Source: Methanosaeta sp. PtaB.Bin039
GTDB taxonomy: Archaea > Halobacteriota > Methanosarcinia > Methanotrichales > Methanotrichaceae
Direction: 5' to 3'
DNA: 64,000 bases
Assembly: GCA_002067795.1 (NCBI GenBank)
Contig: MVQI01000082.1
Span: forward strand, 1 to 64,000
Part shown: one piece after another, positions 22,805 to 45,337 of the stretch
How positions within the stretch are numbered: position 1 is the first letter of the stretch
Layout: each line of letters starts with the position of its first letter
Translations under genes and position numbers: made by a program
Notes under the pieces: model-generated
Told to the model about the DNA's origin: nothing
The model's database searches: none
What the model saw: only the letters and a program-made list of their open reading frames with translations

Positions 22805-23737
22805 TCAGGGCAGGCACACTTTGCATGGAAGGTATCCCCTGGCCTCCGCGGTTTGCGCATCTGGGAATATGATCGTTAAGTCAGACCGGATCTTGGCAGC
22901 GTAGCGGCATGATGGCAGATGATACTTACGGGAGCTCTTGCTGGCAATATAGCCTGCAAGAGATCGGCTTTCGCCCGAGGTGTCGCTGGCATGATCCAGC
23001 GGCGAGAAGAGCGCCAGATCTTCAGGCGCCTGGTTGCCAGGATGCAGCAAATCCTGGGGCCCGGGTGCCTCATCCTCGCCGCCTATAGCCGAGAGATCCG
23101 GGGAGGAGAGGCCCGCGTCCGAAAGGCGTCCTTTGTTATCAGCCAGTACATCAGCCGTCTCCTGAACCAAACGCATGCGTGCAGGTTTCTGACCGGCATT
23201 CGGATCCGAAGCAGCTCGATCATTCGGCTTTGACCAGGATGGCGGCAGATATCTCCGCCCCAAATCCCCATCATCGATGGCCAGGCATTGCCTCTCCTCC
23301 TGGTGAAGCGGTCCGGCCGGGCTTGAGACCTCCAGCCTGCAGATGTAGTCTCTGCCCATGGCGAGGTTCCTGGTCCTCGCCATCTCGAAGCTGCGCTGCC
23401 CCCGAACCACTCCGATCATCAAAAAACGGGAGCTGTCAACCAGAGCACCCGATCTCCATAAGGAGGCGTTGAGCATCAGGAAGGAGTAGTTATTCTGCAC
23501 CTCCAGGCGGCCCCATGTGCGAAATAGGGTCGGGCTTACAGATGACTGGAAATCCAGCACTACAGGCCTGGAAGTCCGGGACCCTTCATCCTTCATCAGG
23601 CCTGGGGCCTGGCCGCCAGCATCGGAGATCCCAGCGGCCTTTGGACCATTCTCAGATGCCGGCACATCCCCACCTGGCTGAATACATCCTTGTAAAAATA
23701 TTATTAACAATATCAATAGAGTTGCAGTGATCTTCAA
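22805..23737 (-). CDS. Predicted lipoprotein with C-terminal Cys/His metal-binding motif
   Basis: No family is recognised for the main body. From TTG 23737 the 310-aa product has a textbook lipoprotein signal (MKITATLLILLIIFLQGC, lipobox LQGC at about 15-18). A beta-rich middle follows (FRTWGRLEVQNNYSFLMLNASLW), then a low-complexity linker. The C-terminal motif YHLPSCRYAAKI...YLPCKVC resembles the Ada-like zinc-binding tail of several secreted nucleases and ComE-like proteins. It is probably anchored outside the membrane. The frame is open to ATG 23944, but the extra 69 residues would put the signal inside the protein and would cover an ORB-like element (23774-23793), so I prefer the shorter form. 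Confidence 0.6.
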   Translation of the reverse strand: MKITATLLILLIIFLQGCIQPGGDVPASENGPKAAGISDAGGQAPGLMKDEGSRTSRPVVLDFQSSVSPTLFRTWGRLEVQNNYSFLMLNASLWRSGALVDSSRFLMIGVVRGQRSFEMARTRNLAMGRDYICRLEVSSPAGPLHQEERQCLAIDDGDLGRRYLPPSWSKPNDRAASDPNAGQKPARMRLVQETADVLADNKGRLSDAGLSSPDLSAIGGEDEAPGPQDLLHPGNQAPEDLALFSPLDHASDTSGESRSLAGYIASKSSRKYHLPSCRYAAKIRSDLTIIFPDAQTAEARGYLPCKVCLP

Positions 23738-23773
23738 GTGTATCTCGAAGATATTGGGCGACAAAAGCTCGAA

Positions 23774-23793
23774 CCCCTTTATTTCCAGTGGAA
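23774..23793 (-). promoter_or_regulatory. Isolated origin-recognition-box (ORB) element
   Basis: Read on the minus strand it is TTCCACTGGAAATAAAGGGG, matching the ORBs next to orc1 (CTCCACTGGAAATTAAGGGG) at 17 of 20 positions, including the G-string. It lies about 2.6 kb from the origin core, in the same orientation as the left ORB. Confidence 0.6.
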
Positions 23794-25177: not shown

Positions 25178-25359
25178 CGCTTTCCAATATCGAGTTCAAA
25201 TACCGCTTTCCAATATCGAGTTCAAATACCGCTTTCCAATATCGAGTTCAAATACCGCTTTCCAATATCGAGTTCAAATACCGCTTTCCAATATCGAGTT
25301 CAAATACCGCTTTCCAATATCGAGTTCAAATACCGCTTTCCAATATCGAGTTCAAATAA
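25178..25359 (+). repeat. Seven perfect tandem copies of a 26-bp unit
   Basis: The unit (CGCTTTCCAATATCGAGTTC plus AAATAC) repeats head to tail at 25178, 25204, 25230, 25256, 25282, 25308 and 25334 without a mismatch, except that the final base of the last copy is A instead of C. There are no spacers, so it is not CRISPR. The 26-bp period is not a multiple of 3, so it is not evolving as protein. It lies about 1.0 kb from the origin core. Confidence 0.95.
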
Positions 25360-25787: not shown

Positions 25788-26362
25788 AAGGTCAGAGCAG
25801 CACTGATGGCGAGGATTTTTCCGGAAGCAAAATAGGGCGCGTGGTACTGGATATAGGCACGCCCACATTAAGGCCGCCTGATGTTCAGCGGCTTATGCCA
25901 GGCACGGCTTAACAGGTCTGCTGACTTCTATTGCATGTCAGGAGCCTGTCCGGATACCATCAATCACCCCTTTCAGTCCATCTCCGCAGCAGAAAAGTCC
26001 TGGACTAAATTGGGCTCGTGGCGAGTTCGTAATACCTATAAGGAGCAGAGGCGGCCCTGGCAACAGGCCCAATCGGAAGAAAAGGCGAAGTGATTAATGG
26101 GCCGCACGAGGTAGCCTGAGCACGATCGGGAATAAAGACATCAAGTATGTGAGCATATCCGGATGTCAAACCGCCACGGATCACGTTTTTACGACGGATT
26201 CCTTTTTCATTCCATTCTTTTCTGCGATGGCATATTTGGGGCAGCGAAATCAGGTGGACGACAGGCTCACAAATATGAGCGATTATATTATGATATCTCT
26301 GAGCCATAATATTGTGATATGCAAGATATTGCGTTACATGCGATTTAATCAGGAAGGGGGGA
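25788..26362. other. Intergenic, left shoulder of the predicted origin
   Basis: No credible gene. Short frames at 25881-26093 and 26149-26544 have no family features. The sequence becomes AT-rich toward the right. Confidence 0.45.
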
Positions 26363-26382
26363 CCCATTCATTTCCAGTGGAG
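26363..26382 (-). promoter_or_regulatory. ORB element, left, inverted
   Basis: On the minus strand it reads CTCCACTGGAAATGAATGGG, followed by TCCCCCC. The dyad core TCCACTGGA and the G-string match the two right-hand ORBs but point the other way. Confidence 0.75.
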
Positions 26383-26859
26383 ATTTTCGTCGTGACCGAA
26401 GCTTGCATGCAGAGGGTCATAAAGAGCCTGCATAAATACAGTTCGTATGTACCATTTACAGAGATAAATCCGAGATCGGAGGTCATTAGGAATCCTCCAA
26501 ATAGACTTATAAAGATTATATGTAATAATAAACAAATAGAATAATTTAATTATAAATTTAATATCATTTAAAAATATTTAATATAACTGTTTCATAAATA
26601 TCGGGCATGGGGGTATTGGAGATATTAAAATAGATGTATTATTGATGGAAGTTTTATCAGTATATAGATTCTTGGATAAAGATGTTTATTATTATATGAA
26701 TATCAAAATGTAAGAGTCCATCGGGAGAATTACATATGATCGTCAATTGTAAATTCATCGCGGTAATCAAGAAAAGATTTAAGTAATTGAAATGTCCATG
26801 GTTACATCGGATAAATTTTTTACAAATATCAATCAATCAAATAAAAATTTTTATCTCAC

Positions 26860-26879
26860 CTCCACTGGAAGCAATGGGG
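26860..26879 (+). promoter_or_regulatory. ORB element, right copy 1
   Basis: CTCCACTGGAAGCAATGGGG. The core dyad and G-string are intact. It starts 28 bp before the second copy, close to an integral number of helical turns. Confidence 0.78.
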
Positions 26880-26887
26880 TGTCCCCC

Positions 26888-26907
26888 CTCCACTGGAAAT
26901 TAAGGGG
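26888..26907 (+). promoter_or_regulatory. ORB element, right copy 2
   Basis: CTCCACTGGAAATTAAGGGG, 43 bp upstream of the orc1 start. It could let Orc1 regulate its own transcription as well as origin firing. Confidence 0.78.
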
Positions 26908-26949
26908 TCATAACCATAACTCTTAATTAGCGGCGGGCCAAGTTTAAAA

Positions 26950-28194
26950 ATGTCCGAGGGAGTTTTGGTGTCAACATCAAGCGGGTTATTCGCGGGTCTT
27001 TTGGGGCAAGCAGGCATATTTGAGTCGAGGGATGTACTTCGTCCATCCTATACGCCCAGAGAATTGCCCCACAGAGAGGATCAGATAAACAGCTTGGCCT
27101 CAGCCCTGGTCCCTGCGCTGAGGGGCGAGACGCCCTCCAATATCCTGATTTACGGAAAGACCGGCACAGGCAAGACTGCCGTGGCAAAGTACGTGGGAAA
27201 GGAGCTGGAGGAAGCAAGGAGCGAAACCCGCTGCACCGTGATTTACCTCAACTGCGAGGTGGTTGACACCCAGTATCGTGTTTTAGCGCATCTTGCACGG
27301 CATTTCGATAAGGACATACCGATGACCGGATGGCCAACTGATCAGGTCTATTCTGAATTCAGAGATGCTCTCGATCAGTCAGGCCGCGTTGTCGTCATCA
27401 TGCTGGATGAAGTGGATAAGCTCGTCCGAAAAGGGGACGATATCCTATACAACCTCTCACGCATCAATTCGGATCTTGTCAGGAGCCGGGTAAGCCTCAT
27501 CGGCATATCCAACGACCTCAAATTCACCGAGTTTTTGGACCCACGGGTGAGGTCGTCACTGGGAGAGGACGAGATAATTTTTCCGCCCTATAACGCCGAG
27601 CAGATTCAAGATATACTACAGCAGAGGGCCTCGACAGCTTTTCGTCCGGGAATCCTGGAAGACGACGTAATACCGCTCTGTGCAGCCTTCGCTGCTCAAG
27701 AGCACGGGGACGCGAGAAAAGCCTTGGACCTCCTGCGCATATCCGGAGAGCTGGCCGAGCGCGGCCGCAGCTCGGCAGTATCTGAAAATCACGTCCGGCA
27801 GGCTCGAGAGAAGATAGAGCAGGATCGCGTAGAGGAAGTTGTCAAGACCCTGCCTACCCAGAGCAAGCTGGTCCTCTATAGCGTGCTGCTTTTAGAGGAG
27901 CAGGCTGTGCGCAACATCACGACCAGCTCCGTCTATAACATGTACAAACTGCTGTGTCCCCTGGTGGAAACCGATCACCTGACCCACAGGCGCATAACCG
28001 ATCTTATATCGGAGCTCGATATGCTTGGGATTTTGCATACGGTGGTCATCAGCAAGGGACGCTACGGTCGCACCAAGGAGATAACCCTCAGCGTATTTCC
28101 GCCCAAGCTAAAACAGGTCCTACTGCAGGACTACCGCCTTAAGGTACTCTCCTCTATGACCGTCCCCACGCAGGCCAGGCTCGGGATGGGATAA
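26950..28194 (+). CDS. cdc6: Orc1/Cdc6 replication initiator
   Basis: Origin-binding AAA+ ATPase that recognises ORB elements and loads MCM helicase. The 414-aa protein has Walker A GKTGTGKT (residues 69-76), Walker B VVIMLDEVDKL (about 150-160), sensor 1 IGISNDLKFTEFLDPRVRSSL, a sensor 2 region with GDARKALDLLR, and a C-terminal winged-helix domain (about 300-400) for DNA binding. The start at ATG 26950 is 43 bp downstream of an ORB, and the gene reads away from the predicted origin. A second orc1 paralogue is not in this window. Confidence 0.96.
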   Translation: MSEGVLVSTSSGLFAGLLGQAGIFESRDVLRPSYTPRELPHREDQINSLASALVPALRGETPSNILIYGKTGTGKTAVAKYVGKELEEARSETRCTVIYLNCEVVDTQYRVLAHLARHFDKDIPMTGWPTDQVYSEFRDALDQSGRVVVIMLDEVDKLVRKGDDILYNLSRINSDLVRSRVSLIGISNDLKFTEFLDPRVRSSLGEDEIIFPPYNAEQIQDILQQRASTAFRPGILEDDVIPLCAAFAAQEHGDARKALDLLRISGELAERGRSSAVSENHVRQAREKIEQDRVEEVVKTLPTQSKLVLYSVLLLEEQAVRNITTSSVYNMYKLLCPLVETDHLTHRRITDLISELDMLGILHTVVISKGRYGRTKEITLSVFPPKLKQVLLQDYRLKVLSSMTVPTQARLGMG

Positions 28195-28577: not shown

Positions 28578-28706
28578 ATGCGTTTGATCTCTGGAGGAAT
28601 GCGTTTGATCTCTGGAGGAATGCGTTGGGTCTCTGGAGGATATGCTTTGGATCTCTGGAGGATATGCTTTGGATCTCTGGAGGATATGCTTTGGATCTCT
28701 AGAGGA
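28578..28706 (+). repeat. Six tandem copies of a 21-22 bp unit
   Basis: Units start at 28578, 28599, 28620 (21 bp each, ATGCGTTTGATCTCTGGAGGA type) and 28641, 28663, 28685 (22 bp each, TATGCTTTGGATCTCTGGAG plus GA type). Copies within each half are nearly identical, while the halves differ by a few bases and one insertion, which suggests two rounds of duplication. Every copy except the last holds CTCTGGAGG; the last has CTCTAGAGG. Confidence 0.92.
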
Positions 28707-39352: not shown

Positions 39353-40945
39353 ATGCTCAGCGTGGTTCGCAGGCTTGCCGAGATGGGTTACCAGATAGAG
39401 CCGGATGCCCTGGAAATGATCTGCTCCACATCTGAAGACCATGCCGGCCTTCTGGACCGGCTGGTTGGCAGGCTGGATCTATCCACAGTGGTGGTGGGAG
39501 CTGACCATGTCCGGGCCTGCTTGACTCAGCCTGCGTCCTCATCCAGGATCATGCCTTCCGAGGTGAATCTCCAGGACCTGCCTTTGGAGTCATCCGGCTT
39601 GCTGGACCCACCAACGTCCAGGCATATGCAAAGTTGCCACGGGTGCGGGGCCATCATGCCAGAATCTAACCTTGATTACGATCGTGATGTGCCGGATCTT
39701 CCTGGCCGCCCACGTGATGCTCATGATTCAGACGCGTCTGCTCCAGTGGAGGTGATATGCGACATCACCGGCCAGTCAACATGCCAGGGCCGGTATTCGG
39801 ACTTCGTTCACTACTTTCGCGACCGATACAGCAGGCTTAAGGAGATGCTCTCGCACCGCATGAACTCCCGGCCAATTGAGAGCCTTGGCAAGAACACAGC
39901 CGGAAGAGAGGTCTCTGTCATTGGGATGGTCATGGATATCCGCGCAACCGGCAAGGGTCATCGTGTGGTGGAGTTGGAGGACCCAACGGGCATGGTTACG
40001 GTCCTGTTCCAGAAAGATGCGCCCCTCTATGAGCAATCACTGCAGCTGGTTACCGATGAGGTGGTGGGCGTGTCCGGCACCTCGGATGGTGCCGGCCGGA
40101 TATTCGCATCCAACCTTGTGTGGCCTGATCTGCAGGCTCAGTCGTCTCCCCTCTGCCCCGGTGAAGGCGGAGCCATCCTGCTGTCCGACCTGCATGTAGG
40201 CAGCAGATACTTCCTTCAGGAGGCCTGGAACAGGTTTACCTCCTGGTTGTGTGGTGAGATGGAAGACCCTTCCGGGCTTGCCGAAGGAGTGAGGTACCTG
40301 GTCATCGCCGGGGATGTTGTTGATGGAATCGGGGTGTACCCGGGTCAGGAGCAGGACCTGGCCATCAAGGATATCTATGATCAGTACGAGCTGGCCGCGG
40401 AATGCCTGCGTGCCATTCCATCCGGTCTCCGAATCATCCTTGCCCCTGGCAATCATGATATGGTCAGGCAGGCAGAGCCACAGCCCTCGCTTCCCAGGGA
40501 GATCCAGGCACTATTTCCACCCCATGTGACCTTTGTAGGCAATCCATCTTATGTATCGCTGGGCAAAGTCTCATCCCTGATTTATCATGGGCGATCCATA
40601 GACGACCTCGTTATGAAGGTGCCGGGGCTCTCCTATCAGGAGCCAGAGAAGGCCATGGTGGAGATGCTCCGCCGCAGACACCTATGTCCAATCTACGGCC
40701 AGAGAGTCTCGATCGCCCCTGAGGGGCAGGACCATTACGTAATCTCACGCCCGCCTGCTATCCTGCACTGCGGACATGTTCACATCTTCGGTGCCACCCG
40801 TTATAAGGGGGTGCTCGCGGTCAACAGCGGCACGTGGCAGTCCCAGACCGATTTTCAGAAGAAGATGAACATCCAGCCTACGCCGGCCATCGCTGCCAAT
40901 GTTGACCTGGCCACAATGAAGGTCAGAAAGCTGCTATTCGCCTGA
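39353..40945 (+). CDS. polB: DNA polymerase D small subunit DP1
   Basis: Exonuclease subunit of the archaeal replicative PolD. The 530-aa protein has an N-terminal helical region (1-60), a low-complexity linker, an OB fold (VSVIGMVMDIRATGKGHRVVELEDP, about 188-215) and a calcineurin-like phosphoesterase domain: LLSDLHVGS (about 274), VIAGDVVDGIG (about 318), LAPGNHDM (about 364), YHGRSIDD and LHCGHVHIFG (about 472). All metal ligands of the 3'-5' exonuclease look intact. The C-terminal VNSGTWQSQTDFQKKMNIQPTPA contacts the large subunit in relatives. ATG 39353 is preferred; the frame is open further up but overlaps the signal peptidase gene. Confidence 0.94.
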   Translation: MLSVVRRLAEMGYQIEPDALEMICSTSEDHAGLLDRLVGRLDLSTVVVGADHVRACLTQPASSSRIMPSEVNLQDLPLESSGLLDPPTSRHMQSCHGCGAIMPESNLDYDRDVPDLPGRPRDAHDSDASAPVEVICDITGQSTCQGRYSDFVHYFRDRYSRLKEMLSHRMNSRPIESLGKNTAGREVSVIGMVMDIRATGKGHRVVELEDPTGMVTVLFQKDAPLYEQSLQLVTDEVVGVSGTSDGAGRIFASNLVWPDLQAQSSPLCPGEGGAILLSDLHVGSRYFLQEAWNRFTSWLCGEMEDPSGLAEGVRYLVIAGDVVDGIGVYPGQEQDLAIKDIYDQYELAAECLRAIPSGLRIILAPGNHDMVRQAEPQPSLPREIQALFPPHVTFVGNPSYVSLGKVSSLIYHGRSIDDLVMKVPGLSYQEPEKAMVEMLRRRHLCPIYGQRVSIAPEGQDHYVISRPPAILHCGHVHIFGATRYKGVLAVNSGTWQSQTDFQKKMNIQPTPAIAANVDLATMKVRKLLFA

Positions 40946-45220: not shown

Positions 45221-45337
45221 AGCCGCCGATGGGATTCGAACCCATGAACTGCTGATCTGCCGGGCTTCTCAAGAAAACTCGCTTTTTCCAAGAAGCCTTA
45301 CGAATCAGCCGCTCTAACCGGGCTAAGCCACGGCGGC
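45221..45337 (-). tRNA. tRNA-Thr (anticodon CGT) with a 42-nt intron
   Basis: The acceptor stem GCCGCCG/CGGCGGC, anticodon stem GCTGA/TCAGC and T arm ATGGG-TTCGAAT-CCCAT all form on the minus strand. The loop reads TTCGTA|A after removal of nt 45257-45298. The intron sits at the canonical 37/38 site. It closes with GGCTTCT/AGAAGCC and makes a bulge-helix-bulge: three-base bulges TA^A and AG^A around a short helix (TTCG against CGGC, three of four pairs). The discriminator is T, usual for archaeal tRNA-Thr. CCA is not encoded. Confidence 0.93.

Follow-up and report, generated by a model that had tools for sequence, protein, structure and literature searches.

An oriC1-type replication origin proposed for a Methanotrichaceae archaeon, with opposed ORB elements upstream of orc1

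The locus upstream of the orc1/cdc6 gene in the window, the 64,000-nucleotide stretch of DNA analysed here, is most probably (about 0.87 by our estimate) a chromosomal replication origin of the oriC1 type in this uncultured, methane-producing Methanotrichaceae archaeon. Several consensus ORB elements are set in opposed orientation around an AT-rich zone, beside a gene of the orc1-1 type, and their position is conserved among relatives. The predicted origin is of the ordinary oriC1 kind and is larger than the sequence-only reading had described: judging from the predicted sites, we accept an ORB domain of about 3.1 kb, not 0.5 kb. Since GC skew gave no support, the case for an active origin is built on anatomy and conservation.

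Three 20-bp elements had been reported, at 26363-26382 (minus), 26860-26879 (plus) and 26888-26907 (plus), and all were found exactly as quoted. Each extends to a 21-nt ORB with a G-string at its end: the left proximal ORB CTCCACTGGAAATGAATGGGT (26362-26382, minus; 26.8 bits), right ORB 1 CTCCACTGGAAGCAATGGGGT (26860-26880, plus; 29.5 bits), kept at about -90 of orc1 in relatives, and right ORB 2 CTCCACTGGAAATTAAGGGGT (26888-26908, plus; 31.8 bits), kept at about -62. The three copies are real, but the set was incomplete, as a fourth ORB of perfect consensus had been overlooked. This distal ORB, TTCCACTGGAAATAAAGGGGT (23773-23793, minus; 0 mismatches), lies in the gap separating an Auto_anti-p27 gene from a putative lipoprotein gene, and its 36.4 bits are the top score of the 198-kb contig. 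The weight matrix was built from the ORBs of relatives only, and the four scores of 26.8-36.4 bits compare with a maximum of 13.9 in a Markov simulation of 2.45 Mb. With up to one mismatch allowed, the full motif YTCCANTGGAARNNANGGGGT has four sites in the 2.45-Mb genome, all of them in this 3.1-kb stretch beside orc1, and the reversed control of the degenerate 21-mer has none at the same threshold; at three mismatches a background emerges in this genome that is not above the reversed control. The motif is in agreement with the Methanomicrobia ORB of Ori-Finder 2, TCCA[GC]T[GT]GAAA[CT][AG]A[AT]GGGGT (PMC4164010), and by sequence the window elements classify as full ORBs of this published type.

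That the matches are chance occurrences or ordinary repeats would be suggested by the 10-mer core CTCCACTGGA taken alone, which has eight copies in the genome, including five at places other than the three sites first reported, and by an 11-mer that is enriched just mildly in the window. However, those five copies (on contigs C36, C45, C51 and C71, and at window position 39742) are partial and are missing from the full-motif search even at three mismatches, whereas the full 21-mer is conserved together with its positions. We regard this explanation as refuted and its probability as negligible. Another ORB-like sequence, TTCCACCGGAAATCAAGGGGT in genomes G010 and G013, falls within a coding frame and looks coincidental.

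The initiator gene (26950-28194, plus) encodes a protein of the Orc1-1 type (NF001625, 659 bits; cut-off 501) with Cdc6_lid and Cdc6_C domains; the closest solved structures are 2qby_A (the Cdc6 homologue 1 chain; Sso Cdc6-1) and the homologue 2v1u. As had been claimed, the elements lie directly upstream of this gene, the last ORB being 41 nt from the start codon at 26950, and the opposed elements do enclose an AT-rich stretch. The zone is AT-rich over 26460-26850, and its segment 26507-26706 (18.5% GC), the second lowest in GC of all 200-nt segments of the 198-kb contig, is a candidate duplex unwinding element (DUE). In most relatives the AT-rich minimum is found at about -280 to -500 relative to orc1. 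The origin reading is supported, but to call the prediction precise was too strong, because the conserved ORB domain extends as far as 23.77 kb and AT content is the only basis for placing the melting point.

The ORB domain encloses two genes that are conserved neighbours, one of the Auto_anti-p27 family (PF06677; 23944-24456, minus; Pfam 46.7 bits) and one of the UPF0147 family (PF03685; 25458-25787, plus; Pfam 120.6 bits). The putative lipoprotein gene (22805-23737, minus) was recognized from its sequence; its likely start is the TTG at 23737 (MKITATLLILLIIFLQGC), 35 nt beyond the distal ORB, and there is a weak Ada_Zn_binding match at the gene end. Two open reading frames overlapping the left ORB (26005-26367, minus, and 26149-26544, plus) match no Pfam family and were not counted as genes. 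Two tandem repeats are also present, seven all but identical copies of 26 nt inside the ORB domain (25178-25358) and six copies of 22 nt on the opposite side of the origin core (28578-28706). Neither has a counterpart in the loci of relatives, and the idea that the 26-nt repeat is an iteron was dropped, as it is unique to the window's genome. Elsewhere in the window, an Rfam tRNA match (45221-45337, minus) is 117 nt long, and therefore the gene probably contains an intron.

Conservation among relatives, proposed by the sequence-only reading as a check on the three elements, is very strong. Most of the relatives compared were Methanothrix/Methanosaeta, and the outgroups were Methanoperedenaceae and haloarchaea. 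Across 29 Methanotrichaceae orc1 loci, which are not 29 independent species since some genomes were counted through two collections, all 48 ORBs within 150 nt of orc1 are on the plus strand and all 51 ORBs at 150-5000 nt are on the minus strand; none was found elsewhere in these loci. The absence of any exception in orientation is the point that counts here, rather than the number of loci. A left minus ORB is present in all 27 loci with at least 3 kb of upstream sequence, and a right plus ORB in every locus where the upstream sequence is usable. Where enough upstream sequence is available, nearly all relatives have the distal minus ORB flanked by the same pair of genes, 1.4 to 4.5 kb from orc1. 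Minus ORBs at positions comparable to the left proximal ORB occur in many relatives, several of them degenerate, and none was detected there in genus g9. Members of genus g7 have an additional ORB beyond the lipoprotein gene, and right ORB 2 is degenerate in this genus. In genus g9 the orientation of the ORBs is retained although the intervening UPF0147 and Auto_anti-p27 genes have been inverted or rearranged. In G048 at least six ORBs of a single sense form a 123-bp tandem array (L251:64-699, G048:C69) on the UPF0147/Auto_anti-p27 side of the origin, and the contig ends inside it. An Orc1-1 orthologue is listed, by a strong full or partial match, in 44 of 50 family genomes, and 49 of the 50 carry the ORB motif. 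The constancy of ORB orientation across all 29 loci, even where the intervening genes have been rearranged, supports a model of facing initiators.

From this layout we infer that Orc1-1, made from the adjacent gene, would bind each ORB in a fixed direction. Because the left ORBs are on the minus strand, the right ORBs are on the plus strand and every G-string is directed outwards from the AT-rich zone, the bound initiators would face each other across that zone, at about 26.5-26.85 kb. There they would recruit two MCM helicases, melting would start and replication would fire bidirectionally. The distal ORB at 23.77 kb may be an outer binding site or a titrator of Orc1, and Orc1 bound to the right ORBs would abut the orc1 core promoter, probably regulating its own synthesis. 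In the published model, Orc1/Cdc6 takes its orientation from the polarity of the ORBs, and two MCM complexes are thereby loaded facing each other across the DUE (PMC6742236, PMC12141716); the orientation pattern of the window fits this model.

The same mechanism has been proposed for oriC1 of Saccharolobus/Sulfolobus, which likewise has opposed ORBs around an AT-rich DUE beside orc1-1; its ORB3-DUE-ORB2 core is about 130 bp long, whereas about 500 bp separate the proximal ORBs of the window (PMC12141716, PMC6742236). The Methanomicrobia oriC regions of DoriC/Ori-Finder 2 resemble the window in their ORB motif, including the GGGGT G-string, in adjoining an orc1/cdc6 gene and in having an AT-rich zone, but the ORB domain of the window extends over 3.1 kb and encloses two genes and the distal ORB (PMC4164010). 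Ori-Finder 2 examines only intergenic stretches beside replication genes (PMC4164010), an approach that would miss the distal ORB. In Haloarcula hispanica, oriC1 and oriC2 have inverted ORBs with G-strings like those of the window, the G-strings are essential, and an ORB cluster away from the core, oriC2D, titrates the initiator (PMC3936714). Extra ORBs away from the core are thus common to both, but the window has one distal site beyond the core, in contrast to a cluster downstream of the initiator gene in H. hispanica (PMC3936714). The Methanomassiliicoccales have a 21-22 nt box nearly identical to that of the window, and again the main initiator gene is near ORBs and a second orc1/cdc6 is not; their boxes occur on both sides of orc1/cdc6.1, whereas those of the window are all upstream (PMC4153887).

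Skew analysis, also suggested beforehand as a check, gave no support at orc1. On the 198-kb contig of a genome that is in 82 contigs, the cumulative skew curve does not turn at 26.9 kb. For G046 (1,879,471 bp), the nearest relative with a complete genome, we computed raw and detrended GC, AT, RY and MK skews, the skew at fourfold sites, and gene orientation. Neither of the last two points to orc1-1 there, and the strongest skew axis, near 0.84/1.72-1.74 Mb, was reached by 9 of 100 block permutations. As skew is weak everywhere in this relative, we read the outcome as a lack of signal, uninformative rather than contradictory.

Many archaea have several origins. The locus could accordingly be one of several, or dormant, with most initiation at another site that lacks consensus ORBs. 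A second Orc1/Cdc6 paralogue is indeed encoded on contig C13 (G000 C13:37673-38743; L040, L198), and the weak axis of G046 falls near a solitary ORB at 0.827 Mb and not at orc1-1. However, the genome of the window has no other ORB with up to one mismatch, no ORB occurs in 9.4 kb around the C13 copy or near its counterparts in G015 and G046, and the G046 axis is matched by the permutations mentioned above. We therefore consider this explanation unlikely, and a second origin at the C13 gene, which has no ORB in the 9.4 kb around it, is unsupported.

An alignment of orc1 upstream regions, in which row L050 was disregarded (the L050 genome was covered by the spacing scan), revealed a further conserved element, ACCATAACTCTTAAT (26913-26927, plus), 4 nt past the last ORB and 22 nt ahead of the orc1 start codon. 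It is conserved at least as well as the ORBs, and an exact match to its 14-nt core occurs just once in the genome. The counterpart in Methanoperedenaceae is ACCAAAAGTCTTAATA, at an unchanged distance from the ORB, so that the 4-nt spacing is fixed from Methanotrichaceae to Methanoperedenaceae. By its form and position ACCATAACTCTTAAT is probably the BRE/TATA core promoter of orc1, in which case the mRNA would be nearly leaderless; alternatively, it may be an element of the origin. Such constant spacing between a site for the initiator and the promoter of the initiator gene suggests autoregulation by Orc1. An arrangement of this kind is known from dnaA, whose promoter contains DnaA boxes (cited in PMC3936714), and the orc1 locus is similar in that ORB 2, an initiator-binding site, lies at the probable promoter of orc1 itself. 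In the literature searched, which left most subscription journals outside, we found no report of archaeal Orc1 autoregulation of this kind.

Many Methanotrichaceae genomes also contain an additional ORB far from orc1. Among loci encoding a NosD-type beta-helix protein with a readable N-terminus, 19 of 28 have a full ORB upstream, about 150 nt before aligned residue 21 and roughly 90 nt before the start, in diverged flanks; solitary sites of full consensus are exemplified by L201:7036-7056, L214:2177-2197 and L216:7084-7104. The genome of the window has no NosD relative at the threshold used and no solitary ORB. Genus g9 likewise has no NosD-type gene at this threshold, and each of its six genomes (G041-G046; L252-L256) has a solitary ORB by an alcohol-dehydrogenase-like gene, an lhr-type helicase gene, or both. 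The skew axis of G046, weak and not significant, falls near the solitary ORB of that genome (C1:826735-826755). Solitary ORBs may be operators, titration sites or remnants. A tentative and rather doubtful extension is that Orc1-1 of the Methanotrichaceae also serves as a sequence-specific transcriptional regulator: it would act on its own promoter via the fixed 4-nt contact between ORB and promoter, on the lipoprotein gene via the distal ORB, and in many relatives on the distant gene of the NosD-like surface protein via one conserved solitary ORB.

Regulation could also be all that the ORBs serve, as mere operators for the control by Orc1-1 of its own gene and its neighbours, with replication starting elsewhere. 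Several observations are compatible with this: the right ORBs adjoin the probable orc1 promoter at a fixed spacing, the lipoprotein gene starts about 35 nt from the distal ORB, solitary ORBs elsewhere precede the NosD-like gene, and the orc1 locus is unmarked by skew. However, operators would leave unexplained the strict opposed orientation around the AT-rich zone, the multi-ORB arrays on the left side and the agreement with mapped archaeal origins, and we consider it highly improbable that the sites have this function only. 

The Methanothrix family comprises major acetate-using methanogens. In the literature searched we found no mapped origin for the family, and a specific one is now proposed. 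The results also offer a case in which initiator autoregulation can be tested directly, as can the retention of isolated ORBs outside an origin. If Orc1-1 does act as a regulator in these archaea, the activity of the initiator would be tied to gene expression, or the solitary site would be a titrator similar to datA.
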